Shown: positions 1 through 17,304 of the stretch, one piece after another | Layout: every line of letters begins with the position of its first letter | Numbering within the stretch: position 1 is the stretch's first letter | Assembly: GCF_001270265.1 (NCBI RefSeq) | Contig: NZ_LGAP01000023.1 | Coordinates: 1-64,000 of the forward strand | DNA: 64,000 nucleotides | Reading direction: 5' to 3' | Source: Ensifer adhaerens | GTDB lineage: Bacteria > Pseudomonadota > Alphaproteobacteria > Rhizobiales > Rhizobiaceae | Position numbers and translations under genes: made by a program | Notes under the pieces: generated by a model | Told to the model about the DNA's origin: nothing | The model's input: only the letters and a program-made list of their open reading frames with translations | Database searches by the model: none

Positions 1-143
1 GACAGCGTGAAATCGTCGGTGTGGCAGATGCCGGTGGCCTTGACCTCGATCAGCACCTCGCCGGCCCGCGGGCCTTCGAGCTGAACGGTCATCACTTCCA
101 GCGGCTTGCCGGCCTGAACGGCGACGGCGGCGCGTACATCCAT
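1..143 (-). CDS. frmA: S-(hydroxymethyl)glutathione dehydrogenase (class III alcohol dehydrogenase), N-terminal part only
   Basis: Only the first 47 codons are in the window, read leftward from an ATG at 143. The protein begins MDVRAAVAVQAGKPLEV and contains VKATGICHTD, the first zinc-ligand region of class III zinc alcohol dehydrogenases, where Cys and His bind the catalytic zinc. The family oxidises S-hydroxymethylglutathione, the spontaneous adduct of formaldehyde and glutathione, using NAD in the cytoplasm. It lies just downstream of etfA and near two predicted N-demethylases. A role in removing formaldehyde released by demethylation is inferred from that context. The family call is firm; the rest of the gene lies outside the window. 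Confidence 0.85.
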   Translation of the reverse strand, partial: MDVRAAVAVQAGKPLEVMTVQLEGPRAGEVLIEVKATGICHTDDFTL

Positions 144-231
144 CGTTGGATACCTCTTGCTGGTGATTTGATTGCAGGCCAGGCCGCGCAGCTGCCGGCC
201 TCCAGATTGATATCGTTCGGTTCAAGACGCC

Positions 232-1173
232 TTAGAGCGCCTTTTCAAGCTCCGGCAGAGCATCGAAGAGATCAGCGACGAGGCCGTAGTCGGCGACCTG
301 GAAGATCGGTGCCTCCTCGTCCTTGTTGATGGCGACGATGACCTTGCTATCCTTCATGCCGGCGAGATGCTGGATCGCCCCGGAGATGCCGCAGGCGATG
401 TAGAGATCGGGCGCGACCACCTTGCCGGTCTGGCCGACCTGCCAGTCGTTCGGCGCGTAGCCGGCGTCGACCGCAGCACGGCTTGCACCGACGGCAGCGC
501 CGAGCTTGTCGGCAACCGGCAGGATCACTTCCCTGAATTTTTCCGAAGAGCCGAGCGCGCGGCCACCGGAGATGATGATCTTGGCCGAGGTCAGTTCCGG
601 ACGATCCGACGACGACAGCGCATCGGCGACGAAGCTCGACAGGCCGGGATTGGCGGCAGCCGAGACGCTTTCGATCGCAGCCGAACCGCCTTCAGCGGCG
701 GAGGCGAAGGAAGCGGTGCGCACGGTGATGACGCGCTTGGCTTCCGTCGTCTGCACCGTCTGGATGGCGTTGCCGGCATAGATCGGGCGTTTGAAGGTGT
801 CGGAGGAGACAACTTCGATGATTTCCGAAACCTGGCTGACGTCGAGCAGCGCTGCAACGCGCGGCATGACGTTTTTGCCGACCGAGGTCGCCGCGGCGAC
901 GATCGTGTCGTAGTTTCCGGCAAGCGAGACGATGAGCGCCGCCAGCGGCTCGGCGAGGTTGTTGGCGAGCGAGGCGTCGTCGGCAACGAGCACCTTGGCA
1001 ACATCGGCAAGCTTGGCGGCCTGCTCTGCCGCTGCCTTGGCGCCGGCACCGGCGACCAGCACGTGCACGTCGGCTCCAGTCCCACTGGCGATCTTGGAGG
1101 CAGCCGTCAGAGCCTTGGCGGTCTGGTCGGAAAGGTGGTTGCTGTCGTGGTCAGCCAGAAGCAGAATGGCCAT
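232..1173 (-). CDS. etfA: Electron transfer flavoprotein alpha subunit, copy 1
   Basis: A 313-residue ETF alpha subunit of normal length. The N-terminal domain starts [10 protein letters not shown]. The C-terminal FAD-binding domain carries the family signature around residues 252-280 ([14 protein letters not shown] followed by VIVAINKD). With EtfB it forms a soluble heterodimer that carries electrons from flavoprotein dehydrogenases to ETF-ubiquinone oxidoreductase. It lies 25 nt downstream of etfB, in one transcription unit. The second copy at 55918-56859 differs at only about 14 of 313 residues. The neighbouring flavin demethylases are the obvious electron donors (inference). Confidence 0.95.
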
Positions 1174-1198
1174 GATGATATCTCCCTTTTGCTGAACC

Positions 1199-1948
1199 TT
1201 AGAGGACGCCGGCTTCGACTTTAAGCTTCTCGACGAGCTCGGCCACCGACTTGACCTTGATGCCAGCCTTGCGGCCCGACGGCTCCTCGGTCTTCAGCAC
1301 CTTGATGCGGGCTGCCGTGTCGACGCCGAAGTCGGCCGGCGACTTCTTGTCGAGCGGTTTCTTCTTCGCCTTCATGATGTTGGGCAGCGAGGCATAACGC
1401 GGCTCGTTCAAACGCAGGTCGGTGGTCACGACCGCCGGCAGCGTGATGGCGATCGTCTGCAGGCCGCCATCGACTTCGCGCGTCACCGTCGCGCTTCCCT
1501 CACCGATCTCGACCTTCGAGGCAAAGGTGCCCTGGGCCCAGCCGAGCAGCGCCGACAGCATCTGGCCGGTCTGGTTGCTGTCGTCGTCAATCGCCTGCTT
1601 GCCGACGATGATCAGTCCCGGCTGTTCGGCCTCGGCCACTTGCCTGACGATCTTGGCGACGGCGAGCGGCTCAACCTGGTCCTCGGTCTCGACCAGGATC
1701 GCCCGGTCGGCCCCCATGGCGAGCGCGGTCCTGAGCGTCTCTTCGGCCTTGGCCGGACCAACGGAGACAACGACGACCTCGTCGGCCTTGCCCGCCTCCT
1801 TCAGCCGCAGCGCCTCTTCCACCGAGATCTCGTCGAACGGGTTCATCGACATCTTCGCATTGGCCAGCTCGACGCCCGAACCGTCCGCCTTCACGCGGAT
1901 CTTGACGTTGTAGTCAACCACCCGTTTGACCGTAACCAGGATCTGCAT
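1199..1948 (-). CDS. etfB: Electron transfer flavoprotein beta subunit, copy 1
   Basis: A 249-residue ETF beta subunit starting [20 protein letters not shown] purine-rich ribosome site (GAGAGGAGAG) precedes the ATG at 1948. The family binds AMP and packs against the EtfA FAD domain. The family signature region includes [15 protein letters not shown]. It is the first gene of an etfB-etfA unit. The copy at 56883-57632 differs by only about six or seven residues, so the pair looks recently duplicated or homogenised by gene conversion. A cupin gene on the same strand ends 43 nt upstream and may be cotranscribed. Confidence 0.95.
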
Positions 1949-1991
1949 GGATCTCTCCTCTCAACGTAAATGGAAAGTTGCTCGGGGTAGG

Positions 1992-2597
1992 TCAGTGCCT
2001 TGGCTGGTCCGGCAGCAGTGCCCAAAGAGCGAATAGTGGTCTCTCCCCCGAGCGCATGGCGTGCTTGATGCCCGGGGGATTGTAGAAAGAGCCTCCGATC
2101 CCCGGCGAGAACCAACCGGAATCGCCTTGCTGAAACTCCCCCTCGGACAGAACCAGGTAAGTCTCCTCCGGAGCATGCTCATGGTCCGGGTAGCGAACCT
2201 TCGGGGCCATCAACGTGGCGCCGAGCCAAACGTCCCTGCGGTCTTCCAACCCACCCGGGCCGACGATCATCGTATTGGCGTGGCTCAGGAGGAAGTTCTC
2301 GCTGGCCGTGTTGTCATAGGTCGAACGCCATTTCCACTCGAGCATCGGCTCGAGTGCCTTGAAGCTCGCTGCGAGTGAACGCAGCGAGGTTAGCCGCACG
2401 TCCACATGCAAGACGCCTTCGAGGTATTGTTTGCAAACGGGAAGACGTTTGCCTTCACCTTGGCGCTCCGTGCCCGGGGTCTCGAGATTCGCTAAGATCT
2501 GCATGACGGAGCGCCGGGCGCGCAGGTCATGGGCGTACTGGTCGAATGCCACGAACGCCGCGTCGACAACCCTCTGCAATATGTCATTTCGCGTCAT
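1992..2597 (-). CDS. Cupin-fold DMSP-lyase-like protein (DddQ/DddL type)
   Basis: A 201-residue protein with a C-terminal single-domain cupin. The metal-site motif is visible as Tyr136, His139, His141, Glu145, Tyr147 and His179. The intervals His141-4-Glu145-2-Tyr147-32-His179 equal those I recall for the ligands and catalytic Tyr of marine DddQ (His125, Glu129, Tyr131, His163). Length and the N-terminal helical half also fit the DMSP lyase family. DddQ releases dimethyl sulfide and acrylate from dimethylsulfoniopropionate, often slowly. Here the gene sits between etfB and a StcD-like demethylase, with a betaine importer nearby. Its true substrate may be another betaine. Fold and family are likely; activity is uncertain. 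Confidence 0.7.
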   Translation of the reverse strand: MTRNDILQRVVDAAFVAFDQYAHDLRARRSVMQILANLETPGTERQGEGKRLPVCKQYLEGVLHVDVRLTSLRSLAASFKALEPMLEWKWRSTYDNTASENFLLSHANTMIVGPGGLEDRRDVWLGATLMAPKVRYPDHEHAPEETYLVLSEGEFQQGDSGWFSPGIGGSFYNPPGIKHAMRSGERPLFALWALLPDQPRH

Positions 2598-2643
2598 GCG
2601 AGACCTCGATGCTGATCGAAGGGCGAGCCAATGAGCTCCGCGG

Positions 2644-4680
2644 TTAGAGATCCTTGGCCAGCCTCAAGGCGTCGTAGATGGCGGCGTGCGTGTTGCGGGC
2701 AGACACCGCATCTCCGATGCGGAAAAGCTGATAGGTGCCAGCCGGATTGCGCTCGACCGTCTGTGGGCTGCCGGAAAGCAATTCGTCGTAAGAGAGCTCG
2801 CCGAGGTTCCTCGAGCCGGGCTTCAGTTCGAAATACAGGTCATCCAGCGGGATCGTACCGTGATTGACGACGATCTGGTCGAACATCTGCTGCTTGGCGA
2901 CGCCCCCATAGTCACTGCCGACGTGCGCGATGATCTGATTGCCGCTCTTTTCGGCGGCCTCCAACCTGTAAGTGACGGTGAAGGTTACATCGAGCTTCTG
3001 CAGCGAGCGCATGTAGGGCACGAGATTCATCGCCATCACTTCCGGAGCGAATGACCGGTCGGGTGTCATGATCTCGACCTTCGCTCCGGCCTTGGCGAGG
3101 AACTCTGCGGCCTGCAAGCCGGCGTGGTCGCCGGCATCGTCGAAAATCAGCACATTGGTCCCGGGCTTCACGTCGCCCGAGATGATATCCCAGGAGGAAA
3201 CCACCAACTCATTGCCCTTTGACAGGACCTCCGTATGGGGCATGCCACCGGTCGCGACGATCACTACATCGGGGTTTTCTGCCGTAACGGTGTCGGCCTC
3301 AGCCCAGGTGTTGAAGCGGAAGGTGACGCCGAGCTTCTCGCATTGACCCATGCGCCAATCGATGATGCTCATCATTTCCCGCCGGCGCTCGCTTTGCGCC
3401 GTCAGCCGGATCTGCCCTCCAGGATTGTTCGCCGCCTCAAGGACCACGACCTCGTGACCGCGCTCGGCCGAGACGCGGGCGGCTTCAAGGCCTGCCGGCC
3501 CAGCCCCGATGATCACCACCTTCTTGCAAACCTCCGCCTTTTTGACGATGTGCGGCATGGTCTGCTCGCGACCCGTCGCGGCATTGTGGATGCAATAGGC
3601 AGCTCCGCCCTGATAGATGCGGTCGAGACAGTAGTTCGCGCCGACGCACGGACGGATATCGTCCTCACGTTTCTCCATGATCTTTCGCACAATATGCGGG
3701 TCGGTCATGTGGGCACGTGTCATGCCGATCATGTCGACCTTGCCGGATGCGATCGCGTAGCGCGCCGTTGCGACATCCGGGATCTTCGCCGCGTGGAAGG
3801 TCGGGAAATTGGTTGCGGCACGGATCTCGCCTGCGAAATCGAGGTGCGGAGCATTGGCCATCCCTTGGATCGGGATAACATCGGTCAGACCGGCGTCCGT
3901 ATCGATGTGGCCGCGAATGACGTTCAGATAGTCGATGAGACCGCTGTCGCGCAGCCGCTTGGATATCTCCATCCCCTCGGCTCGACCCGTCCCACCGGGA
4001 AGACACTCGTCGGCGGTGTATCTGATACCAAGGATGAAATCGTTGCCGACCCTCTCGCGCATGGCCTTGAAGACATCAAGACAGAACCGCATGCGGTTTT
4101 CGAGCGAGCCGCCATAGGGTCCTTCGAGCTCGTTGGTCAGCGGCGAGGTAAACTGATCGATCAGATGGCCATAGGCCTCGAGTTCGACACCGTCCATACC
4201 GCCCGCCTTCATGCGCTCCGCGGCGTCGGCGAAGTCTTTGATGATGCGCTCAATGTCCCAGTCTTCGAGCTTCTTCGGGAAGGCGCGATGTGACGCTTCG
4301 CGGTGATGTGACGGTGCCACAACCGGAAGCCAGTCACCCTTGTCCCAACGGGTCCGTCGACCGAGGTGGGTAAGCTGGATCATGATCGCCGCACCCTCCT
4401 CGTGGACGGCATCGGTCATCTGCCGGATCCAGGGGACGATCTCATCCTTGTAAGCCAGCAGATTGTTGAAGACTGGCGGACTGTCCTTCGAAACCGCAGC
4501 AGAGCCCGCGGTCATCGTCAGCGCCACACCACCCTTCGCCCGCTCGACTGTATAGGCACGGTAACGCTCCTTCGGCATCCCGTCTTCCGGATAGGCTGGT
4601 TCGTGTGACGTGACGATGATGCGATTTCGCAGCGTCAAGTGCTTGAGTTTGTAGGGTTGCAGGAGGGGATCGTTCGACAT
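2644..4680 (-). CDS. stcD: N-methylproline (stachydrine) demethylase StcD-like, FMN/FAD iron-sulfur flavoprotein
   Basis: A 678-residue protein of the old-yellow-enzyme/trimethylamine-dehydrogenase family. Residues about 1-370 form the FMN TIM barrel. Cysteines 345, 351 and 363 form an iron-sulfur motif. From about residue 387 (VVIIGAGPAG) a dinucleotide-binding FAD/NAD domain follows. The whole sequence resembles rhizobial StcD, assigned to removing the last N-methyl group from N-methylproline in proline-betaine catabolism, with ETF as the likely electron acceptor. The usual second cluster cysteine is Ala348. The gene lies downstream of a divergent promoter shared with a TetR gene and 46 nt upstream of the cupin gene. 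No Rieske first-step demethylase (Stc2 type) is in the window, so the exact substrate is open. Confidence 0.8.
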   Translation of the reverse strand: MSNDPLLQPYKLKHLTLRNRIIVTSHEPAYPEDGMPKERYRAYTVERAKGGVALTMTAGSAAVSKDSPPVFNNLLAYKDEIVPWIRQMTDAVHEEGAAIMIQLTHLGRRTRWDKGDWLPVVAPSHHREASHRAFPKKLEDWDIERIIKDFADAAERMKAGGMDGVELEAYGHLIDQFTSPLTNELEGPYGGSLENRMRFCLDVFKAMRERVGNDFILGIRYTADECLPGGTGRAEGMEISKRLRDSGLIDYLNVIRGHIDTDAGLTDVIPIQGMANAPHLDFAGEIRAATNFPTFHAAKIPDVATARYAIASGKVDMIGMTRAHMTDPHIVRKIMEKREDDIRPCVGANYCLDRIYQGGAAYCIHNAATGREQTMPHIVKKAEVCKKVVIIGAGPAGLEAARVSAERGHEVVVLEAANNPGGQIRLTAQSERRREMMSIIDWRMGQCEKLGVTFRFNTWAEADTVTAENPDVVIVATGGMPHTEVLSKGNELVVSSWDIISGDVKPGTNVLIFDDAGDHAGLQAAEFLAKAGAKVEIMTPDRSFAPEVMAMNLVPYMRSLQKLDVTFTVTYRLEAAEKSGNQIIAHVGSDYGGVAKQQMFDQIVVNHGTIPLDDLYFELKPGSRNLGELSYDELLSGSPQTVERNPAGTYQLFRIGDAVSARNTHAAIYDALRLAKDL

Positions 4681-4723
4681 GCGACGGGCTCCGGTTTAAG
4701 GACTCTGATCGCAACGCTAAGCG

Positions 4724-4789
4724 AAAATGTACATATGTGTCAACAATGAAAACACATGCGTTTGGATTATCGACACACATGTACATTTT
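4724..4789. promoter_or_regulatory. Long inverted repeat in the stcD-like/TetR divergent promoter
   Basis: The arm at 4724-4741 (AAAATGTACATATGTGTC) pairs with 4772-4789. Seventeen of 18 positions are complementary, and the arms are 30 nt apart. Between them, 4751-4762 (AACACATGCGTT) is itself a palindrome with one mismatch. The site lies in the 146-nt gap between the divergent demethylase and TetR genes, just where an autoregulating TetR protein would bind. The operator role is inferred from position and symmetry. Confidence 0.65.
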
Positions 4790-4826
4790 GCTTGAAGAAG
4801 CCCAGTAGATTTGTTAGGAGTTCATT

Positions 4827-5456
4827 ATGGAACAGGCGATGAGTGACAGCGGCTGGCGTGGTTCTCATGAGGGGTGGCTCGAAGCGGCCTATGACTCTCT
4901 GCTCGAATCCGGCGTGGATTCGGTAAAGATCCTGCCGCTCGCCAAGAGGCTCAACCTGTCCCGAACCAGCTTCTACTGGTTCTTCAAGGACAGGGAGGAA
5001 TTGTTGAGTGCCCTGATCGCGCGGTGGAGAGAAAAGAACACCGGCAACCTCGTGAAGCAGTCGGAAGCTTATGCCGAGACTTTGGCCGAGGCGATGCTGA
5101 ACGTGTTCGACTGCTGGGTGAACAAGGACTTGTTCGACTCGCAGTTCGAGTTTGCGGTCCGCAGTTGGGCCCTTCAGTCGCCAGAGATTGTCGACGAGGT
5201 TCAACGAGCCGATCAGGTCCGTCTGGAAGCGCTCGCCCGGATGTTCATGCGTTTCGGCTATGGCGAAGGGCCTGCCGATGTTCGCGCCCGAACGACCTAT
5301 TTCGTGCAGATCGGCTACATCTCCATGCAGTCCAAAGAGGACATTGCGCTGCGTATGAAGCGGATCCCCGAATACATCGCAATTTACACCGGCCAAGTGC
5401 CGCAGCAGAGGGAGCTTGACCGCTTCTTCGCCCGGCACGGCTACAAACCCGAGTGA
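4827..5456 (+). CDS. TetR/AcrR-family transcriptional regulator
   Basis: A 209-residue protein with an N-terminal TetR helix-turn-helix at about residues 15-60 (LPLAKRLNLSRTSFYWFF is the recognition region). The C-terminal ligand domain is all-helical. It is divergent from the StcD-like gene across the long inverted repeat at 4724-4789 and starts the rightward run that includes the ProC-like reductase and the betaine importer. The likely job is substrate-responsive control of both arms. A betaine or its breakdown product is the natural inducer candidate. The family call is firm; effector and sign of control are unknown. Confidence 0.85.
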   Translation: MEQAMSDSGWRGSHEGWLEAAYDSLLESGVDSVKILPLAKRLNLSRTSFYWFFKDREELLSALIARWREKNTGNLVKQSEAYAETLAEAMLNVFDCWVNKDLFDSQFEFAVRSWALQSPEIVDEVQRADQVRLEALARMFMRFGYGEGPADVRARTTYFVQIGYISMQSKEDIALRMKRIPEYIAIYTGQVPQQRELDRFFARHGYKPE

Positions 5457-5470
5457 GAGAAGGACTGGAG

Positions 5471-6265
5471 ATGAACGGCCGTTTGAGGGTTGGCATTGTC
5501 GGTGGGGCGGGGTGGCTCGGCGGAGCCATCGCCGAAGCTCTTCTCGATGCCGGCGTTGTAACGTCTGACGGGCTGTCCCTCTCCTACCGCAGCAATCAGC
5601 CGGAGCGTTTCCCCTCCTCGTTCTGGACAGTAGACAACCAGGCGCTTGCCGACCGGTCGGACGTCATCGTTCTCTCCCTCCGTCCCGTCGACTGGCAGGA
5701 TCTGAAGGTCGATGCTCGAGGTAAGCTCCTGATATCCGTCATGGCGGGCGTGCCCCTAAGCGCGCTTTGCCAACGTCACGAAACGTGTCGCGTCGCGCGT
5801 TCGCTTCCCAATGCCGCAGCGGAAGTCCGCAGATCCTATACGCCATGGATCGCCACGGGCGATGTCAGCCAGGCCGATCGAGAAATCGTGCGCGCCATCT
5901 TCGACGCTTGCGGGATGCAGGATGAGGTCACAAGCGAGACCGAGCTCGACTATCTCACGGGCCTTTCTGGGTCGGGGCCGGCTTTTCCGGCTCTTCTGGC
6001 CGCCGCGATGATGGACGACGCCGTCCGGCAAGGTCTCGATCCGCTGGTCGCGCGGCGCGCGGTCAACTCCGTCTTGATCGGAACGGGTCGGATGCTCGAA
6101 CAGCGAGACCACTGTCCGACCGACACAGTCGAGACGTTTCTCGATTATCGCGGCACGACCGCTGCAGCGATCGAAGCCATGCGCGCGGCCGGCTTCGACG
6201 CCGCCATCGCCGAGGGCCTGGCAGCCGCGCTCAAGAAATCGGTGAGTATGGGACGAGGTTCCTGA
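5471..6265 (+). CDS. Pyrroline-5-carboxylate reductase-like (ProC family) oxidoreductase
   Basis: A 264-residue protein. The N-terminal Rossmann fold has the glycine motif IVGGAGWLGGAI (residues 9-20). The C-terminal dimerisation domain has the ProC hallmark LTGLSGSGPAF. The family reduces 1-pyrroline-5-carboxylate to proline with NAD(P)H. ATG 5471 is chosen because AAGGA lies six bases upstream; an in-frame GTG at 5453 overlapping the TetR stop is the alternative. The glycine motif is divergent and the gene sits in a betaine cluster, so it may be a specialised imine reductase rather than the housekeeping proline enzyme. It probably shares an mRNA with the TetR gene. Confidence 0.75.
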   Translation: MNGRLRVGIVGGAGWLGGAIAEALLDAGVVTSDGLSLSYRSNQPERFPSSFWTVDNQALADRSDVIVLSLRPVDWQDLKVDARGKLLISVMAGVPLSALCQRHETCRVARSLPNAAAEVRRSYTPWIATGDVSQADREIVRAIFDACGMQDEVTSETELDYLTGLSGSGPAFPALLAAAMMDDAVRQGLDPLVARRAVNSVLIGTGRMLEQRDHCPTDTVETFLDYRGTTAAAIEAMRAAGFDAAIAEGLAAALKKSVSMGRGS

Positions 6266-6335
6266 CAGCCGTCCGGAGCGGGCGAAGCGGCAGCCGGCTC
6301 CTGATACAAAAATGCCGCCAAAAGAGGGAACGTTT

Positions 6336-7337
6336 ATGAAGAAGCTGCTTGCATCTACCTGCTTGATGTTCGGCCTACTTGGCGGAGCGTCCGTTACGAG
6401 TGCCGCCGAATGCGGAACCGTCACGATTGCCAGCATGAACTGGCAAAGCGCCGAGGTGCTGTCGAATCTCGACAAGTTCATTCTCAACGAAGGCTACGGT
6501 TGCAGTGCCGAGATCACCATCGGCGACACCGTGCCGACGATCACCTCCATGGCGGAGAAAGGCCAGCCTGACATCGCTCCGGAAGCATGGATCGACCTGC
6601 TGCCCGATGTCGTCAAGAAGGGAACGGAAGAAGGCCGGATCATAAAGGTCGGCTCTCCTCTTCCCGATGGTGGCGTGCAGGGCTGGTGGATCCCCAAATA
6701 TCTCGCTGACGCCCATCCGGACATCAAGACGATTGGCGACGCGCTGAAGCACCCGGAGCTCTTTCCCGATCCGGAGGACCCAAGCAAAGGAGCCATTTAC
6801 AATGGCCCGCAGGGCTGGGGCGGCACGGTCGTAACTTCCCAACTCTACAAGGCGTTCGACGCTGAAAAGGCAAAGTTCACGCTGGTCGACACCGGTTCGG
6901 CGGCTGGCCTCGACGGTTCGATTGCCAAGGCCTACGAACGCAAGGAAGGATGGGTCGGCTACTACTGGGCACCGACTGCGCTGCTTGGCAAATATGAGAT
7001 GGTCAAGCTTGAGGCAGGCGTACCCCTCGATGCCGCCGAATGGAAGCGCTGCATTACCGTGGCTGACTGCGCCGATCCCAAGCCGAGTGCATGGCCGGTC
7101 GATACGATCGTGACTCTGGTCGCCAAGCCCTTCTCCGAGAAGGTCGGTCCTGACGTCATGGACTATCTTAACAAGCGCGCCTGGAGCAACGACACGGTCA
7201 GCAAGCTGATGGCCTGGATGACGGACAATCAGGCAAGCGGCGAAGAAGGCGCCAAGCACTTCCTCGAAGAGAACGCAGACGTTTGGTCGAAGTGGGTCTC
7301 GCCGGAAGCGGCCGAGAAGATCAAGTCGGCCCTCTAA
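6336..7337 (+). CDS. proX: Glycine/proline-betaine ABC transporter substrate-binding protein
   Basis: A 333-residue periplasmic protein of the OpuAC/ProX family. A signal peptide runs MKKLLASTCLMFGLLGGASV and is probably cut after TSAA. ATG 6336 is chosen over one eight codons upstream because GAGGGA precedes it and the signal peptide starts there. The mature protein is rich in tryptophan and tyrosine (MNWQS, PEAWIDL, QGWWIPK, WVGYYWAP), as expected for the aromatic box that holds quaternary ammonium groups by cation-pi contacts. It is followed by a strong intercistronic hairpin, then permease and ATPase genes. Class is firm; the precise betaine is not. Confidence 0.85.
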   Translation: MKKLLASTCLMFGLLGGASVTSAAECGTVTIASMNWQSAEVLSNLDKFILNEGYGCSAEITIGDTVPTITSMAEKGQPDIAPEAWIDLLPDVVKKGTEEGRIIKVGSPLPDGGVQGWWIPKYLADAHPDIKTIGDALKHPELFPDPEDPSKGAIYNGPQGWGGTVVTSQLYKAFDAEKAKFTLVDTGSAAGLDGSIAKAYERKEGWVGYYWAPTALLGKYEMVKLEAGVPLDAAEWKRCITVADCADPKPSAWPVDTIVTLVAKPFSEKVGPDVMDYLNKRAWSNDTVSKLMAWMTDNQASGEEGAKHFLEENADVWSKWVSPEAAEKIKSAL

Positions 7338-7346
7338 GCCACTTCT

Positions 7347-7376
7347 GGGTGCGGTGCGCCTAAGCTCACCGCACCC
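7347..7376 (+). terminator. Intercistronic hairpin after proX-like gene
   Basis: A perfect 10-bp stem, GGGTGCGGTG (7347-7356) with CACCGCACCC (7367-7376), has a 10-nt loop and is followed at once by TTTT. It resembles a weak intrinsic terminator or a 3'-end stabiliser between the binding-protein gene and the permease gene. That would give more binding protein than membrane components, a common pattern in ABC operons. Confidence 0.7.
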
Positions 7377-7426
7377 TTTTCCAGAATCGAAAAACTTGCG
7401 CCGGCTTCTTCAAAAAGGGGAACCGA

Positions 7427-8314
7427 ATGGAATGGCTTTTTGAATTCCCACACATGAACGACGACTCCCTTCGCACGCTGAAGAAGGCGATCGACGAAGG
7501 CTTCCGCTCGTTCACGCGCGCCTATGGCGACGCCATCGAGGGCTTCTTCTCTCCTTTGCAGCACTTTCTGATCGCCTCAGAACGCTTCATGACGCAGACG
7601 CCTTGGCCGATCATCATGATCATCATCCTCGCGATCGCCTGGGGCGCGAGCAGAAGTTTGAAAGTCGTGCTGGGCTGTTCGGTGACTCTGCTGGCGATCG
7701 GCTATTTCGACATGTGGGACGACACCATGCGGACAGTCTCAATGATCTTCGTCTGCACGCTCCTGTCGATTGCCATCGGCATTCCGATCGGCATTCTGAT
7801 GTCCCGTTCCGATCGCCTTCAGCGGGTCGTTAACCCGGTGCTCGATGTCATGCAGACGATGCCGAGCTTCGTCTATCTGATCCCCGTCGTCATGCTGCTC
7901 GGGATCGGAAAGGTGCCGGGCCTCATCGCAGTCGTCATCTACGCCATCCCGCCGATGATCCGGCTTACCAATCTCGGCATTCGCCTTGTCGACAAGGATG
8001 TTCTCGAAGCGGCTGACGCCTTTGGTTCGTCGAGTTGGCAGAAGCTCAAGAACGTGCAGTTGCCGTTGGCGCTGCCGACGATCATGGCCGGCATCAACCA
8101 GACCATCATGATGGCGCTTGCAATGGTCGTCATCGCCTCGATGATTGGTGTTCAGGGCCTCGGCCAGCCGGTGCTGAAGGCGATTGCCAACCAATATTTC
8201 ACGCTGGGCATTTTCAACGGCCTTGCCATCGTCGGCATCGCCATCATCTTCGACCGGGTCAGCCAGGCATACGGCGAGAGACTCCAGAAGCACCGGGAGA
8301 TCGTCCATGGCTGA
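7427..8314 (+). CDS. proW: Betaine ABC transporter permease
   Basis: A 295-residue ProW/OpuAB-type inner-membrane permease. An N-terminal cytoplasmic/amphipathic stretch of about 60 residues comes first, then hydrophobic segments from about residue 58. The cytoplasmic EAA loop is EAADAFGSSSWQKLKNVQLP, which docks on the ATPase. The core TMSIAIGIPIG to GVQGLGQPVL segments match the family. The ATPase start overlaps the end of this gene by 8 nt, so they are translated together. Substrate class follows from the binding protein and ATPase; betaine import is likely. Confidence 0.88.
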   Translation: MEWLFEFPHMNDDSLRTLKKAIDEGFRSFTRAYGDAIEGFFSPLQHFLIASERFMTQTPWPIIMIIILAIAWGASRSLKVVLGCSVTLLAIGYFDMWDDTMRTVSMIFVCTLLSIAIGIPIGILMSRSDRLQRVVNPVLDVMQTMPSFVYLIPVVMLLGIGKVPGLIAVVIYAIPPMIRLTNLGIRLVDKDVLEAADAFGSSSWQKLKNVQLPLALPTIMAGINQTIMMALAMVVIASMIGVQGLGQPVLKAIANQYFTLGIFNGLAIVGIAIIFDRVSQAYGERLQKHREIVHG

Positions 8315-9344
8315 CACCAAATTCGGCGGCATCAAGATCCGCCACCTCTACAAGATCTTCGGGCCGAACGCCCAAGCGTATGTCGATGCCGTAAAAAAGG
8401 GCCTGACGAAGGCCGACCTCAACGAACGTCACGGGCATGTTTTAGGCTTGCGGGATATCAACATCGAGATCCCCTCCGGCCGCATCCAGGTGATCATGGG
8501 CCTGTCGGGGTCGGGCAAATCGACCCTCATCCGGCACATCAACCGACTGATCGATCCCACTGCCGGCGAAGTCCTGGTCGATGGTGTCGACGTCGTAAAG
8601 ATGAGCCAGTCGGAGCTGCGCGAGTTCCGACGGCACCAGACGGCAATGGTGTTTCAGAAGTTCGCGCTGCTCCCGCATCGCAACGTTCTCGACAACACGC
8701 TTTATGGTCTTGAGGTTCAGGGTCTGGAGCGCGCGAAGGGCGTCGACATCGCCATGCGATGGATCGAGCGCGTTGGTCTGAAGGGCTTTGAAAGCAAGTA
8801 CCCGAACCAGCTTTCCGGCGGCATGCAGCAGCGCGTCGGCCTCGCTCGAGCGCTTGCGAACGATGCTCCGGTTCTCCTGATGGACGAGGCCTACTCCGCC
8901 CTCGACCCGCTGATCCGCATGGACATGCAGACCGTTCTTCTCGACCTGCAGAAGGAGATCAAGAAGACCATCGTCTTCATCACCCATGATCTCGATGAAG
9001 CGCTGCGACTGGGCGATCAGATCGCCGTCCTACGCGACGGCGAGGTCATCCAGCAGGGCACGAGCCAAGATATCGTCCTCAGGCCCGCTGATGACTACAT
9101 CGCCAACTTCGTCAAGGAGGTGAACCGTGGCCGGGTCGTCCATGTCGAGGCCGTCATGACGCCGGTCGCCGCGGACCATGCGGTCAATGGCGCGACGCTG
9201 ATCGCGGGAAGCACGATCGAGGCCGCCCTCAAGATCCTTGCACACAAGGATGCCAAGGATCTGGTGGTGGTCGATGCTGTCGGAATGCCCGTCGGCGTCG
9301 TGGATCTGAAGCGGCTGGCCGCGGCGGTCGTAACACCGCATTAA
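8307..9344 (+). CDS. proV: Betaine ABC transporter ATP-binding protein
   Basis: A 345-residue ProV-family ATPase. The N-terminal extension before the ATPase (FGPNAQAYVDAVKKGL) is typical of ProV. Walker A is GLSGSGKST, the signature is LSGGMQQRVGLARAL, and Walker B is VLLMDEAYSALDP. The last about 50 residues (TIEAALKILAHKDAKDLVVV onward) look like a single, short CBS-type region rather than the full tandem CBS pair of osmosensing ProV. Regulation by ionic strength may therefore be weak (inference). ATG 8307 is chosen; longer reading upstream overlaps the permease. Confidence 0.9.
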   Translation: MADTKFGGIKIRHLYKIFGPNAQAYVDAVKKGLTKADLNERHGHVLGLRDINIEIPSGRIQVIMGLSGSGKSTLIRHINRLIDPTAGEVLVDGVDVVKMSQSELREFRRHQTAMVFQKFALLPHRNVLDNTLYGLEVQGLERAKGVDIAMRWIERVGLKGFESKYPNQLSGGMQQRVGLARALANDAPVLLMDEAYSALDPLIRMDMQTVLLDLQKEIKKTIVFITHDLDEALRLGDQIAVLRDGEVIQQGTSQDIVLRPADDYIANFVKEVNRGRVVHVEAVMTPVAADHAVNGATLIAGSTIEAALKILAHKDAKDLVVVDAVGMPVGVVDLKRLAAAVVTPH

Positions 9345-9461
9345 GCGGCGGGGGATCCGGAGCTCGGCGAACGAAAACTCAAAAGCCGGGCGTAAGCGTC
9401 TCCCGCGGTGGGAGCCGCTTCGTGCGGATGGTTTCGTCGAGCGCCTTTAAGGAGGAGAAAA

Positions 9462-11447
9462 ATGTCCAAGAAGTTTCCCCACCTGTTCTCTCCGCTCAAA
9501 CTGCGCTCGCACGTACTTAGAAACCGGATCGTCTTTGGCGCTCATACGTCCAATATGGCCGTCGAGGGACTGCCAACGGAGCGGCACGCCGCCTACTACG
9601 CCGAAAGGGCGATCGGCGGAGCCGCGATGATCGTCGTGGAACCAATGCCGGTGCATGCAGCGGCGGTACTAACCCGTGGCAATTTTCGCCATTCGGATGA
9701 CTCGGTCATTCCGCATTTCAAGAAGGTCGTCCGAGCGATAAAGGACCATGGAGCGGTTGCGATCCAGCAACTCTACCATATCGGCGCGCATGGAGATTCC
9801 GACAACTCCTATCATCCGCATTGGTCGCCGTCAGGCCTGCCGAGCTACCACGACAGCGATGGCTCGCATGCGATGAACGAAGACGAAATCTGCGAAACGA
9901 TCGATGGGTTCGTTCAGGCTGCTCGCCGATGTAAGGATGCGGGGTTCGACGGAGTGGAGGTCTGGGCCGCCTATCTCGGCATGATCGACCAGTTCTGGAC
10001 CCCGTGGACAAACCGCCGCGACGACCGATGGGGCGGGTCGATCGAAAACCGCACCCGGATGTCGCGGGAAATACTGACCCGGATCCGGAACTTATGCGGT
10101 CCGGACTTCATCATCGGATTGGCGGTGAGCGATGAACCGGACGTCAAAGTGGCGCTTCAACGAGACGAGCTTGCTGAGATCGTAAAGCTTCATGACGAAG
10201 CTGGCCTCATAGACTATGTGACCTGCGGCTCAGGCGGCTACCTCGATTTCCATAAATTGATGCCCACGTTTCTCTATCCGGAAAAACTCGGTGCGGATCT
10301 CGCCTCAACGCTAAAGAAGGTCGTCAAGACGGCCGTTGTGATCGCGGAAAGCCACATCCGCACGCCCGAGAACGCCGAAACAGTGCTTGGCGAAGGCGCC
10401 GCGGACCTCGTGTCCATCGTGCGCGGTCAGATCGCCGATCCACACCTTGCGAACAAGGCGGCAGACGACCGTCCCGAAGACGTCCGCGGCTGCATCTCGT
10501 GCAATCAGATGTGCTGGGGACGCCGCTCCCGCGACTATTGGATCAGCTGTCTGATCAACCCGTCAGTCGGGCGGGAACTCGACTGGAACGGCGATCAGTT
10601 TGAGCGAGCCGCGGACCCCAAGCGAGTGCTTGTTGTCGGCGGCGGTCCGGCAGGCCTTGAAACGGCACGAGTGGCCGCGGAACGCGGCCATCAGGTGGTG
10701 CTGGCGGAGGCTTCAAACCGCTTGGGCGGCAACTTTCTGCTGGCAGGCCTCCAGCCTCGGAGAGGCCAGATCACGGAACTCCTTCAGTGGTACGAGCGCC
10801 AGCTTGAGAAGCTGGGTGTTGAAGTCCGTCTCAACACCTATTTTGAAGTCGCCGACATCGCCAGCTCCGAGACTGATGTCGTCGTCGTTGCCACCGGCTC
10901 GATCTCGCCCGAAACGGGCTTTCAGAAGGCTTTGCCCACGATTGAGGTATTGCCGGGCATGGAAAAGGGCAACGTCTTTACCGTCGAAGCCGTCATGGCC
11001 CGCCAAGTGAGACCAGGCAATCGTATCCTGCTGCTCGATGAAGGTGGAGGCTGGAGAGGCTGCGGAACAACGTGGAAGATGGCGGAGGACGGCCATGAGG
11101 TGACCATCGTCACGCCTGATCCCTTCGTCGGCAAGGAACTGCAACGAACCGCCGCGGATCTGCCGATGCGACAGGCGTTGAGAAAGCTTGGAGTTCAATG
11201 GATTGTCGAAACGAGCATAGCCGAATGGCACGGGAACGGCGCGACGCTTGTCGACCATACGACTCATGAACGGCGCTTGGTGGAAGCCGACGCGCTGGTC
11301 ATGGCGACGACCAATCATGCTGCAGATTGGCTGATGCAGGACCTGAAAGCACTTCCAGTGTCCGTACGCCAGATCGGCGACTGTGCAGCTCCGCGCCAGG
11401 CGCCCTACGCCTTCTATGAAGGGCGGAAAACCGGCTTGGAGATCTGA
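9462..11447 (+). CDS. NADH:flavin oxidoreductase/dimethylglycine-demethylase-like iron-sulfur flavoprotein
   Basis: A 661-residue second member of the trimethylamine-dehydrogenase/DgcA/2,4-dienoyl-CoA-reductase family. The TIM-barrel FMN domain covers about 1-370, with the active-site region VWAAYLGMIDQFWTP. A complete 4Fe-4S motif uses Cys344, Cys347, Cys351 and Cys363. A dinucleotide-binding domain starts near residue 388 (RVLVVGGGPAGLE). GGAGG lies six bases before ATG 9462. It is clearly a distinct paralogue of the StcD-like protein. Likely role: oxidative N-demethylation of a tertiary or secondary amine derived from the imported betaine, passing electrons to ETF. A dienoyl-type reductase cannot be excluded. 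Confidence 0.75.
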   Translation: MSKKFPHLFSPLKLRSHVLRNRIVFGAHTSNMAVEGLPTERHAAYYAERAIGGAAMIVVEPMPVHAAAVLTRGNFRHSDDSVIPHFKKVVRAIKDHGAVAIQQLYHIGAHGDSDNSYHPHWSPSGLPSYHDSDGSHAMNEDEICETIDGFVQAARRCKDAGFDGVEVWAAYLGMIDQFWTPWTNRRDDRWGGSIENRTRMSREILTRIRNLCGPDFIIGLAVSDEPDVKVALQRDELAEIVKLHDEAGLIDYVTCGSGGYLDFHKLMPTFLYPEKLGADLASTLKKVVKTAVVIAESHIRTPENAETVLGEGAADLVSIVRGQIADPHLANKAADDRPEDVRGCISCNQMCWGRRSRDYWISCLINPSVGRELDWNGDQFERAADPKRVLVVGGGPAGLETARVAAERGHQVVLAEASNRLGGNFLLAGLQPRRGQITELLQWYERQLEKLGVEVRLNTYFEVADIASSETDVVVVATGSISPETGFQKALPTIEVLPGMEKGNVFTVEAVMARQVRPGNRILLLDEGGGWRGCGTTWKMAEDGHEVTIVTPDPFVGKELQRTAADLPMRQALRKLGVQWIVETSIAEWHGNGATLVDHTTHERRLVEADALVMATTNHAADWLMQDLKALPVSVRQIGDCAAPRQAPYAFYEGRKTGLEI

Positions 11448-11448
11448 A

Positions 11449-12444
11449 ATGCCAGACGAGATCCTGCTTGATCGAAAAGATGCTGAAGCGCTAGCGATCC
11501 GCGCGTGTCTTGCGGCTGGAGCGAGCGAACTGACCGCTCGCTCGCTCGTCAATGCCACGCTGTCGGCTGCACTCTATGGCTCCCCAAGTGTGGGATTTCC
11601 GCACCTCATAGACTACCTGCACAGCTTAAAGGAGGGGCGCGTCAATGGCGATCCACAGCCCGTCTTCGAGCGACCCTTTCCTGCCTTCTTCGCCTCCGAT
11701 GCCGATCGAGGGATTGCACAGCTGGGTTTCGATCTTGCACTGGAAGACTTCGTTGCCACCGTGAACAACTTCGGTGTTGGCGTTTTCACTCAGAAGAACA
11801 GCTATACCACCGGAGAACTCGGCTACTACGTCCGCAGGCTCGCTGAACACGGATTGATTTCCATCGCCGCCACCAATGCCAATGCGATGATGGCGCCAAT
11901 CCCCGGGGGATCGCCGGTCTACAGCACCAATCCTCTGGCATTCGGATGTCCGCTGGGAGACTCGATGCCGCCAGTCGTCATCGATCAGTCCTCGAGCGCC
12001 ACCGCCTATGTAAACATCGTCGCGGCCGCAGCGCAGCAACGTCCGATACCGGAGGGATGGGCGGTCGACCGCGAAGGCAGGGCAACGCTTGACGCAGACG
12101 AAGCGTTGACAGGGGCGCTCCTCCCGTTCGGTGGTCGCAAGGGCGCGAACATCGCCTTGATGGTGGAGATGTTGGCCGCCGGCCTTTCTGGTGGATCGTG
12201 GTCGCTGGATGCGGCCGATTTCATGTCGGGGACGCGTTCGCCGGCGGTTGGGCTGACATTGATCGCGATGTTGCCTGGTCGACCCGCCGATCAACGTGTC
12301 GCTCGTGCCAGCGCACAAATCGGACGTCTTCAAGGATTGGGCGTCTATGTTCCTGGAACCAGCAAACAGCCGCCATCGACAGAGTGGGTGAGTCTTTCTC
12401 GCGACACATTCGAAGCGATATCGAAGATAGCCAGCGAGGCGTAG
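11449..12444 (+). CDS. Malate/L-lactate dehydrogenase-family NAD(P)H oxidoreductase, probable cyclic-imine (piperideine/pyrroline-2-carboxylate) reductase
   Basis: A 331-residue member of the Ldh_2 family, which includes malate/lactate dehydrogenases, ureidoglycolate dehydrogenase and DpkA-type 1-piperideine-2-carboxylate/1-pyrroline-2-carboxylate reductases. Family regions seen are TNANAMMAPIPGGSPVYSTN and LLPFGGRKGANIALMVE, the latter lining the NAD(P) site. The start is one base after the stop of the demethylase gene, so the two are coupled. In a cluster with N-methylproline-type demethylases and a ProC-like protein, a cyclic-imine reductase fits best. Lactate/malate-type activity remains possible. 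Family is firm, substrate inferred. Confidence 0.7.
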   Translation: MPDEILLDRKDAEALAIRACLAAGASELTARSLVNATLSAALYGSPSVGFPHLIDYLHSLKEGRVNGDPQPVFERPFPAFFASDADRGIAQLGFDLALEDFVATVNNFGVGVFTQKNSYTTGELGYYVRRLAEHGLISIAATNANAMMAPIPGGSPVYSTNPLAFGCPLGDSMPPVVIDQSSSATAYVNIVAAAAQQRPIPEGWAVDREGRATLDADEALTGALLPFGGRKGANIALMVEMLAAGLSGGSWSLDAADFMSGTRSPAVGLTLIAMLPGRPADQRVARASAQIGRLQGLGVYVPGTSKQPPSTEWVSLSRDTFEAISKIASEA

Positions 12445-12526: not shown

Positions 12527-12874
12527 TTGTCACCTCAGGCGCGCCCCACAACAATGCCGTAGAGCGGAGCAGTTCGAGGGAGACCTGCACTCTCGTGGAT
12601 AGCATCCGCTCCGCTTCCTGGACGATACCAGTTCTGAGCTGAGCTCTGGGCCAACGTGACACCGACCTTGGGAGTCGAACTGTGCATCCGTCGCCTTGAT
12701 GCAATTCGAACTGCTGGTGCGGTACCTGTCATCGCAGCGGAGACACTACCACCGGAAATGAGAGTAGAATCCGTCAGAGGAGACGAAGTGTGATCCTACG
12801 AGCGGTGATGCGCATCGGGTCGGAGTAGTAAGCGGGCGCGCGCGTTGCGCACTGGTCAAACTTGTGAGCTATCG
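12527..12874. other. Intergenic stretch without a recognisable gene
   Basis: About 350 bases between the terminator of the betaine operon and the antiporter gene. Several short open frames exist on both strands, but none has protein-like composition together with a ribosome site. No repeat, tRNA or transposase fragment was recognised. It presumably holds the antiporter promoter. Confidence 0.5.
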
Positions 12875-15246: not shown

Positions 15247-17304
15247 ATGGCGAAGATCGTAGGCTCGTACGCGGACGACGTTTTGAAAGGCACCGGAGAA
15301 AGCGACCGCATCTGGGGTCTTGTCGGCTATGACACGATCGATGGCGGCGCCGGCGACGATTTCGTCAGCGGCGACGACGGTCGAGATACCCTGACGAGCT
15401 CGAGCGGCTACGATCGCCTCGACGGCGGTGCCGATGATGACCAGATCATTCTCACCGGTACCGGCGGCGCCGTTACGGGAGGTCGGGGCTATGACGGACT
15501 TGTCGTCGACTTCTCGCAAAACGCCGACCGAATGGTCTTCAACGGTGCCAACGGCCATGGCTATGTTGGCGATCCGAGCGCCGGTGACCGGCACATCTTC
15601 TTCCACCATATCGAGTGGCTGCGGCTGCTCGCCGGCAGCGGTGACGATCGGATCATCGGGACTGCAGGGGGCGACCGGATCTCGACCGGCGCCGGCGACG
15701 ACGTCGTCCATGCGGGCGCGGGACAGGATATCATCACCAATACGGGTGGCCACGACCGTCTTGACGGCGGCGAGGGAAACGACCGGTTCGTGCTCGTCGG
15801 GACGGGCAGCACTGTTTTCGGCGGTGCCGGAGACGATACGCTGGTCAGCGATCTCTCGGCGACAGCGGCTCCGGTGGTGTTCAACCTGGAGAACGGCCAC
15901 GGCATCATTGGGTACCAGACATCGGAGGAACGGCACCTCTTCGTCCAGTACCATGATGTCGAGCGGATTGTGCTGACGACGGGACGCGGAAGCGACCATA
16001 TTACGGGCAGCGCGTTTCGCGACGTTATCGAGACGGCCGGCGGCAACGATTTCGTCGACGCCGGAGCGGGCGACGACATGATCACCGATGGGCTCGGCGC
16101 CAACCGCCTTTTTGGCGGCGACGGCCGCGATCAGATCATCTCGACGCTCTTCTCCGCCGAGATCGACGGCGGCGCGGGCCAGGACTGGTTGTATATCAAG
16201 GAAACGCAGCGCACGAGCGACCTCACCGTCGATTTCGCTGCCGGAGAGGCCTCAACCGGTACGGTTTTTCGCGGCATAGAGGAGGCGAGCCTCGCGCTCG
16301 GCACCGGCAACGATCGGGTCATTGGGGGTGATCTCACCTTTCTCGTTGTCGATGCCGGCGCCGGAAACGACCATCTCGAAGGCGGTGCCGGGCGTGACCG
16401 GTTCGATGGCGAAGAGGGCAACGACTACATCGACGGCGGCGGCGGAGAAGATACGATATCGACGGGCCTTGGCGACGATGTGGCCTTTGGTGGCGACGGC
16501 AGGGATTCGCTTGCTAATGACGGCGGCAGCGATTTGCTCGACGGTGGCGCCGGCGACGACTGGCTGCAGGACACCATTCCCGGCAGCGGCAGCCTGGGCG
16601 TTGCGTCGATCCTGCGCGGCGGCACGGGCAACGACACGATCAACGCGCGTTACCTCGGCGAGGTCGACGGCGGTGAGGGCCGGGATTTGCTGAGCCTCAA
16701 CTACGGCGGCTTGCCGCAGGCGACCGATTTCGATGCGACACGCGGCGCAACGCACACCGGATTGGCCTTCGCCAATGTCGAATATTTCAGCGTCTCGACC
16801 GGGCGCTACGACGACGTGCTGCGAGGTGCTGACGACGACGACGACACCTTCTATTCGCTGAGCGGCAACGACATCCTCGACGGGCGCGGCGGCAACGACA
16901 CGCTCAGGGGCGACTCGGAAAACGACCAGCTCTTCGGCGGAGATGGCGCGGATTTTCTCGACGGCGGCTCGCAGAATGACCTGTTGAGCGGCGGCAATGG
17001 CACCGACCTGTTGAAGGGTGGCAGCGGTGCCGACACGTTTCTTTGGTCATCGGAAAGCTCCGCTCAGGCGGGTCTCGATCGCATTCTCGATTTCGATGGC
17101 CGGCAGGGCGATCGGATCGCCTTTTCCGAGGAGGCCCAGGACCGCACGGGCATTCACAGTTATGCCGATTTTCTTGCCGCCGCGCGCGTGACGGACGCTG
17201 GTGTATTCATTGCCTTTAACGGCTCCGGTGCCGAAGGCCTCCTGATCGAGGATGTTTTGCTCTCGGCCCTCACCGAAAGCGATGTCGTCTTCGGCCTGGG
17301 CTGA
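15247..17304 (+). CDS. RTX-type calcium-binding repeat protein, probably secreted
   Basis: A 685-residue acidic protein built almost wholly of GGxGxDxx(L/I/F) nonapeptide-like repeats (GGAGDDFVSG, GGEGNDRFVL, GGDGADFLDG and many more). In blocks these fold as calcium-loaded beta-rolls. There is no N-terminal signal peptide, as expected for type I secretion. The C-terminus (DRILDFDGRQGDRIAFSEEA, then a hydrophobic tail ending VVFGLG) matches the usual uncleaved RTX export signal region. No enzymatic domain is visible. GAGGA lies eight bases before the ATG. No type I ATPase, membrane-fusion pair or TolC gene is adjacent, so secretion would rely on a remote system. Role may be adhesion or biofilm matrix (inference). 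Confidence 0.85.
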   Translation: MAKIVGSYADDVLKGTGESDRIWGLVGYDTIDGGAGDDFVSGDDGRDTLTSSSGYDRLDGGADDDQIILTGTGGAVTGGRGYDGLVVDFSQNADRMVFNGANGHGYVGDPSAGDRHIFFHHIEWLRLLAGSGDDRIIGTAGGDRISTGAGDDVVHAGAGQDIITNTGGHDRLDGGEGNDRFVLVGTGSTVFGGAGDDTLVSDLSATAAPVVFNLENGHGIIGYQTSEERHLFVQYHDVERIVLTTGRGSDHITGSAFRDVIETAGGNDFVDAGAGDDMITDGLGANRLFGGDGRDQIISTLFSAEIDGGAGQDWLYIKETQRTSDLTVDFAAGEASTGTVFRGIEEASLALGTGNDRVIGGDLTFLVVDAGAGNDHLEGGAGRDRFDGEEGNDYIDGGGGEDTISTGLGDDVAFGGDGRDSLANDGGSDLLDGGAGDDWLQDTIPGSGSLGVASILRGGTGNDTINARYLGEVDGGEGRDLLSLNYGGLPQATDFDATRGATHTGLAFANVEYFSVSTGRYDDVLRGADDDDDTFYSLSGNDILDGRGGNDTLRGDSENDQLFGGDGADFLDGGSQNDLLSGGNGTDLLKGGSGADTFLWSSESSAQAGLDRILDFDGRQGDRIAFSEEAQDRTGIHSYADFLAAARVTDAGVFIAFNGSGAEGLLIEDVLLSALTESDVVFGLG

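Follow-up and report, generated by a model that had tools for sequence, protein, structure and literature searches.

A probable proline-betaine catabolic locus of Ensifer adhaerens, broken in its assembly at a repeated formaldehyde dehydrogenase-gfa module

Does a betaine cluster that lacks a Rieske oxygenase represent a new route, or has the oxygenase been cut away by the assembly? The question is raised by positions 1-12444 of the window analysed here, which is bases 1-64000 of contig C16 (109,897 bases) in the 7.46 Mb, 99-contig genome of Ensifer adhaerens. The first-pass annotation described these genes as an island for the breakdown of betaines or N-methyl imino acids, and proposed that the island works without a Rieske enzyme. 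Profile searches confirm the gene families that it named, including both types of imine reductase (P5CR-like and Ldh_2), and they form one divergent cluster. The left arm holds a StcD-type flavoprotein (OYE1), a DddQ-like cupin, an electron transfer flavoprotein (ETF) pair and the start of a formaldehyde dehydrogenase (FDH) gene. The other arm holds a TetR regulator, the P5CR-like protein, a ProXWV-type importer, a second flavoprotein (OYE2) and an Ldh_2-family reductase (Ldh2). A catabolic island for a betaine or N-methyl imino acid, with a StcD-type demethylase and with the TetR gene between its two arms, is supported. We argue that the cluster is probably the proline-betaine (stachydrine) catabolic locus of the Rhizobiaceae, broken by the assembly at a repeated FDH-gfa module. 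The locus is on plasmids in annotated relatives.

The window has no match to the Rieske families (PF00848 and PF00355 were searched, with 4 and 12 matches in the genome). The first-pass annotation was right about the window, and it was most likely wrong about the locus. The window's left edge is base 1 of C16 and lies inside the FDH gene. FDH was also named correctly (98% identity to E. adhaerens FDH), although only its first 47 codons are present. A search of the genome for Rieske genes elsewhere, as had been advised, finds candidates on contigs C26 and C40. C26 carries a GbcB-like reductase, a GbcA-like Rieske oxygenase and a LysR regulator at 214-3575, and its opening bases encode the C-terminus of gfa (tblastn gfa 81%). 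The left arm is uninterrupted in Shinella zoogloeoides, where it runs OYE1, cupin, ETF beta, ETF alpha, FDH, gfa, reductase, Rieske, LysR. The opposite arm there, divergent from OYE1, carries Ldh, OYE2, ProVWX, P5CR and TetR. S. chiapasense and E. adhaerens CTYH.Ch1 have the same gene order, and their Rieske proteins are 96-97% identical to that on C26; the S. chiapasense stretch has FDH without a full gfa. These uninterrupted stretches (L022, L023, L019) read LysR-Rieske-reductase-(gfa)-FDH-ETF-cupin-StcD. We argue that the absence of a Rieske gene from the window is most likely an effect of the contig end, and that the gene would sit just past the gap. A linked Rieske enzyme had been named in advance as the mark of the standard stachydrine route. 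Synteny in relatives points to such a link, and from it we infer the C16-C26 join, which is not an assembled one. The claim of a Rieske-free and hence new route is rejected on this synteny and on the co-occurrence of cupin and Rieske described below.

The break falls at this point because FDH-gfa sequences are repeated in the genome. The first 143 bases of C16 recur letter for letter in the FDH copies of C1 and of C16 at 88 kb, and the first 127 bases of C26 and C42 are exactly identical. FDH is interrupted at the left end of C16 and at the right end of C10, and gfa at the starts of C26 and C42, which makes C42 a formal alternative neighbour. The next gene after gfa on C42 is a FAD-linked oxidase, which never directly follows gfa in four relatives (L019, L020, L021, L023). 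This gene disfavours C42 as the true neighbour of C16, though sequence alone leaves it some chance. FDH copies are found in the genome on C1, C10, C16:87775, C26:13854 and C32; they are 87-90% identical to the S. chiapasense gene, with one at 74%.

It is worth considering how often cupin and Rieske occur together. A search of the genus returned 16 genomes, and limits of E <= 1e-60 for the cupin and E <= 1e-200 for the C26-type Rieske were applied. The cupin is in 6 of them and the Rieske is in the identical 6; neither is in the other 10 at these limits. The two genes are 4.8 kb apart in three of the genomes (G081, G083, G085) and 1.4 kb apart in G086. G082 has them close to opposite ends of one contig of 1,164,298 bases. 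One end stops in ETF beta by the cupin and the other in ETF alpha by FDH, gfa and Rieske, as expected if a circle had been cut in the ETF genes. The genome of the window is the only one of the six in which cupin and Rieske are split over two contigs. Across 81 genomes drawn evenly from the family (cupin E <= 1e-30, OYE2 E <= 1e-150), the cupin is in 6 and the Rieske, at 76% identity or more, in 4. OYE2 is in 13, 11 of these without the cupin.

A wider survey used the GTDB species collection, which was scanned with the cupin alignment and gave 114 relatives; the best 80 of the 114 are the loci counted here. Counts are of best non-overlapping tblastn matches above set identity cut-offs. The most constant partners of the cupin are OYE1 (75 of 80 loci), TetR (75), ProX (70) and P5CR (69). 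The C26-type Rieske is found in 17 and a Stc2-type Rieske (82-84%) in 3. In 30 of the 80 loci the contig runs for less than 2 kb beyond the cupin on the side where the window's own contig breaks off. In two loci (L141, L161) the Rieske is on the other side of the cupin. In Falsochrobactrum (L142, L146) a Stc2-type Rieske (82-83%) is 1.1 kb from the cupin, and the C26-type is likewise placed near it in L085, L087, L088, L098 and L161. This equivalent position suggests that the two Rieske types can replace each other. The shared order in S. chiapasense, E. adhaerens and Shinella, together with the constant cupin partners, shows that the cluster recurs beyond chance.

The substrate assignment begins with OYE1, which is 85.7% identical over its full length to a protein of S. 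meliloti pSymB (L024). ProX (87%), TetR (79%) and the cupin (62%) stand alongside it in one block. OYE1 is also 73.6% identical, again at full length, to a protein annotated as the N-methyl-L-proline N-demethylase HpbA. A passage in PMC12239276 places stcD, an N-methylproline demethylase for stachydrine, in a region of pSymB, and the L024 protein is probably StcD. S. meliloti differs in that the ETF, FDH, P5CR, OYE2 and Ldh2 genes are added in the present cluster. It differs also in that S. meliloti 1021 has Stc2 on pSymA, whereas here a separate Rieske subfamily would lie beside the cluster. The protein at L036:4253-5443 on pSymA matches structure 3vca letter for letter over all 396 residues, and 3vca is a stachydrine demethylase according to an excerpt of PMC4014116. 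The Hpb pathway of the Rhodobacterales is another relative. Rhodobacter sp. CZR27 has this annotated HpbA beside TetR, with Rieske, reductase and ProXWV-type genes nearby. Unlike the present cluster, that stretch has no cupin, P5CR, OYE2 or ETF beta detected at E 1e-20, and its Rieske is closer to Stc2 (59%) than to the C26 protein (41%).

The genome yielded no Stc2 orthologue. The C26 Rieske is ruled out as one by its 42% identity, and would represent a subfamily distinct from Stc2; among the members that we met, none has a known substrate. The C40 Rieske is the best match to Stc2 in the genome (57-58%). It was considered as the missing partner and set aside: it is GbcA-like and on another contig, where its own reductase is the sole cluster-type neighbour. 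All three proteins miss the GbcA cut-off (NCBIfam NF058607, 670 bits), with 418 bits for C26, 516 for C40 and 491 for Stc2. In Sinorhizobium sp. BG8 (L064/L065) a Stc2-type gene (83-85%), matching in two frames, comes after a StcD-OYE2-Ldh2 cluster. The replicon-end OYE2-Ldh2-Stc2 part reappears there at the record start.

We propose the following route. The ABC system would import the betaine, and the GbcA/Stc2-like Rieske and its reductase on C26 would take off the first N-methyl group. StcD would then convert N-methylproline to proline and formaldehyde. The ETF pair would receive the electrons, and the formaldehyde would be cleared by FDH and gfa. OYE2 and Ldh2, perhaps with the P5CR-like protein, would probably turn a D- or hydroxylated isomer back into the L-imino acid by way of a cyclic imine. 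What we observe is the gene content, how the sequences are related, the synteny in relatives and the co-occurrence. From these we infer the substrate, the C16-C26 join, the sequence of reactions, the role of the operators, the side module and the part played by the cupin.

The importer has OpuAC (PF04069) and a ProV match above the TIGR01186 cut-off, which point to a betaine-type ABC system. The closest solved chain to the ProX-like protein is the DMSP (dimethylsulfoniopropionate)-binding DmpX 7yle (252.7 bits). Eight pocket residues of RnDmpX are named in a passage of PMC10030565. Six of these are kept (W35, T64, W84, W152, Y200, W202), and E113 is replaced by Q and A153 by G. Such a binding box could suit any small betaine. 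TetR would control both arms through paired operators. The first-pass annotation saw a single TetR operator, and the control region instead holds two conserved ATGTACAT palindromes, at 4727-4734 and 4779-4786. They are two of the three such words in 64 kb, with 0.12 expected. A survey of intergenic regions took in 78 of the 89 loci considered, those with divergent genes, a match to both starts and a spacer of 60-260 bp. In these OYE1-TetR regions TGTACATT is found in 74 of 78 and AATGTACA in 73. The paired palindromes are probable TetR operators.

The first-pass annotation described the second flavoprotein as a complete 4Fe-4S one, and OYE2 has all four cluster cysteines. OYE1 has three of the four, with Ala at the second position of its motif (CVGANYC...C, near residue 345), where enzymes of the trimethylamine dehydrogenase type have CxxCxxC. 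Ala is found there in 20 of 20 OYE1-type rows (58-100% identity, with S. meliloti and Rhodobacter among them) and, in a second count, in 75 of 75 (68-92%). StcD-type proteins linked to the corrinoid methyltransferase MttB have a CVGATYC variant. OYE2 proteins have four Cys as CxxCxxxC, with one residue more spacing, in all 29 rows of the first count, where some genes appear twice, and in all 19 of the second. The 75-row and 19-row counts use only rows whose alignment spans the motif. The two-domain architecture is shared with trimethylamine/histamine dehydrogenase-type OYE flavoproteins, and OYE2 also has their four cluster Cys. No paper on the cysteines of these flavoproteins was found in the open-licence literature, the wider literature being outside the search. 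The same genome has two StcD-like remnants at C8:53316-55488 (L014), one 69% identical over residues 1-133 with a stop and one 58% over 618-674. They adjoin a stop-free MttB-family gene near a LysR gene, and this is apparently a decayed second betaine locus.

OYE2 is 31-33% identical to OYE1 and appears to belong to a separable unit. Its neighbourhood was read in 12 stretches, and genome G034, whose OYE2 has two internal stops, was left out. It occurs together with a StcD-like protein and MttB in 6 of the 12 (L058-L063). An enolase-superfamily gene accompanies it in three cupin-free loci (L062, L063, L067). In L057 it stands with Ldh2 and a trans-3-hydroxy-L-proline dehydratase that is above the NCBIfam cut-off, and in L055 and L069 it is beside hydroxyproline-type genes. 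Near the cupin, among 76 loci with 9.9 kb on that side, OYE2 is in 23, Ldh2 in 22 and both in 13. Ldh2 resembles DpkA-type delta1-pyrroline/piperideine-2-carboxylate reductases by PF02615 and by its best solved match, 1wtj, named ureidoglycolate dehydrogenase / delta1-piperideine-2-carboxylate reductase, though at only 138 bits. The P5CR-like protein scores 164.7 bits against the ProC equivalog TIGR00112, under the cut-off of 196.75. OYE2 and Ldh2 would be an optional module that handles an isomer or a hydroxylated compound via a cyclic imine. HpbD, HypO, HypD and DpkA are taken throughout in their familiar roles.

The cupin is of the DddQ type by family and by fold. It scores 186.8 bits against a cut-off of 27 for Pfam DMSP_lyase (PF16867). 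An AlphaFold2 model from 21 sequences has a mean pLDDT (predicted local distance difference test) of 91, and its top six fold matches in the PDB are DddQ entries (TM 0.69-0.76, 17-23% identity). Two His, a Glu, a His and two Tyr mark cupin DMSP lyases, according to an excerpt of PMC5395565. The corresponding Y136, H139, H141, E145, Y147 and H179, placed by alignment to 5cu1, are invariant in the 21 sequences. The likeness to DddQ thus lies in the fold and six residues; the difference lies in the low identity and in gene partners that are N-demethylases, not known DMSP genes. Strain 3841 has a 65% identical cupin together with StcD on pRL12 (L089). In DMSP lyases the carboxylate is bound by the metal and a tyrosine base takes the alpha proton. 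One can imagine, as a tentative idea that we think somewhat unlikely, that the cupin is an undescribed imino-acid betaine enzyme with this machinery. It would epimerise a cyclic betaine or remove a beta substituent from it by elimination, for instance the hydroxyl group in 3-hydroxyproline betaine, and OYE2 and Ldh2 would process the other isomer. An epimerising cupin would do the job of the HpbD-type enolase. A search for stachydrine, Sinorhizobium meliloti and cupin found no paper in the open-licence literature, and the wider literature was not covered. A second cupin paralogue (31-35% identical) lies near FDH in Rhizobium (L021:14337-15032) and is also in 12 of the 80 loci. Five of the six lyase residues are gone from the L021 copy, the sole one read. 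Marinobacterium ramblicola (L135) has a cupin (60%) without a StcD-type gene; T3LHypDht-like, Pyr2C-reductase-like and HypD/HypO/KGSADH-type genes adjoin it.

Several points weigh against a stachydrine locus that continues into C26. C42 starts in gfa and C10 ends in FDH, and C16 could in principle continue into C42. The C26 Rieske, at 42%, is below the orthologue level of Stc2-type relatives (82-85%), and proline betaine is a putative substrate for it. The substrate of StcD comes from annotation and literature. The genus members are related to each other, and their 6 of 16 match counts for less than 16 independent cases would. Among the 47 loci that extend 6 kb or more beyond the cupin, just 18 have a C26- or Stc2-type Rieske anywhere in the stretch, so it is common near the cupin and not universal. 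Hydroxyproline-catabolic genes of the HypD/HypO/KGSADH type are in 13 of the same 47. These genes also flank the cluster in R. leguminosarum WSM1325, which invites a reading where the cluster and its Rieske serve mainly another cyclic betaine: 4- or 3-hydroxyproline betaine, or pipecolate betaine (homostachydrine). The distance of the linked Rieske from Stc2 and the hydroxyproline-type neighbours of OYE2 are consistent with this. So are the cupin of Ancylobacter lacus, which adjoins a pipecolate-oxidase-like gene (439 bits, under the cut-off of 600), and the Marinobacterium neighbours, of which the T3LHypDht-like and Pyr2C-reductase-like genes are both under cut-off. However, the StcD-type protein is the most constant partner, Stc2-type Rieskes adjoin the cupin in some relatives, and HypD/HypO/KGSADH-type genes were not found in the window's first 22 kb. 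We regard another main substrate as a possibility, and as an unlikely one.

A route that starts without a Rieske enzyme, through the second flavoprotein or through MttB elsewhere, is in our judgement very improbable. It fits the window as it stands, and it draws on the company that OYE2 keeps with MttB and on the three MttB genes of this genome. None of these three is on C16, however, and the cupin and Rieske co-occur in the genus and are linked in relatives, with C26 starting in gfa. Import and cleavage of DMSP by a DmpX-like importer and a DddQ-like lyase is the least probable of the readings considered. The ProX match with its six kept pocket residues and the lyase fold and residues of the cupin speak for it. 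The two replaced pocket residues and the N-demethylase that constantly accompanies the cupin speak against it. R. leguminosarum J391, which may or may not carry the cupin, serves as a host unable to catabolize dimethylsulfoxonium propionate in a passage of PMC10686828, and excerpts of PMC3338564 and PMC10686828 hold indirect evidence against the formation of dimethyl sulfide and acrylate from DMSP. We therefore keep to a proline-betaine locus as the probable reading.

The first large gene to the right of the cluster is a Na/H exchanger at 12845, found by profile search. Further along, window 15247-17304 encodes a 685-aa protein with six RTX calcium-binding nonapeptide-like stretches, adjoined by ABC, MacB/FtsX and HlyD-type genes.

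Table 1. Genes and control region of the cluster, in window coordinates
Feature	Position	Strand	Evidence
S-(hydroxymethyl)glutathione (formaldehyde) dehydrogenase FDH, first 47 codons, cut by contig end	1..143	-	98% to E. adhaerens FDH
ETF alpha, FixB type, probable electron acceptor	232..1173	-	PF00766, PF01012
ETF beta, FixA type	1199..1948	-	PF01012
DddQ-like cupin, DMSP_lyase family	1992..2597	-	PF16867, 186.8 bits
OYE1, StcD/HpbA-type N-methylproline demethylase, OYE/TMADH-like flavoprotein	2644..4680	-	85.7% to S. meliloti pSymB protein
Divergent control region, 146 bp, two ATGTACAT palindromes, probable TetR operators	4681..4826	.	conserved words
TetR/AcrR-family regulator	4827..5456	+	PF00440
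P5CR-dimer family imine reductase, ProC-like; likely start 5471	5453..6265	+	PF14748
ProX, betaine-type periplasmic binding protein, OpuAC	6312..7337	+	PF04069; closest solved structure DmpX 7yle
ABC permease, ProW type	7427..8314	+	PF00528
ABC ATPase, ProV type; likely start 8307	8184..9344	+	TIGR01186 345.2 bits, above cut-off
OYE2, second OYE/FadH-type Fe-S flavoprotein; likely start 9462; separable module	9408..11447	+	PF00724
Ldh2, Ldh_2-family imine reductase, DpkA-like; likely start 11449	11383..12444	+	PF02615

An enzyme that is missing at a contig edge can be an effect of the assembly. The pathway here is largely familiar, and a few extra enzymes are unexplained: the cupin, OYE2 and the Ldh2-type reductase. 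The conserved loss of one Fe-S cysteine in StcD-type proteins raises the question of how the cluster is held. Should the cupin turn out to be a betaine lyase or epimerase, the genes labelled dimethylsulfoniopropionate lyase in many rhizobial records would carry a wrong name and could distort surveys of DMSP cycling. Plants use proline betaine as an osmolyte, and for rhizobia it is a nutrient connected with nodulation, according to passages in PMC12239276, PMC9197100 and PMC12489286, and the full gene set therefore matters for rhizosphere ecology.

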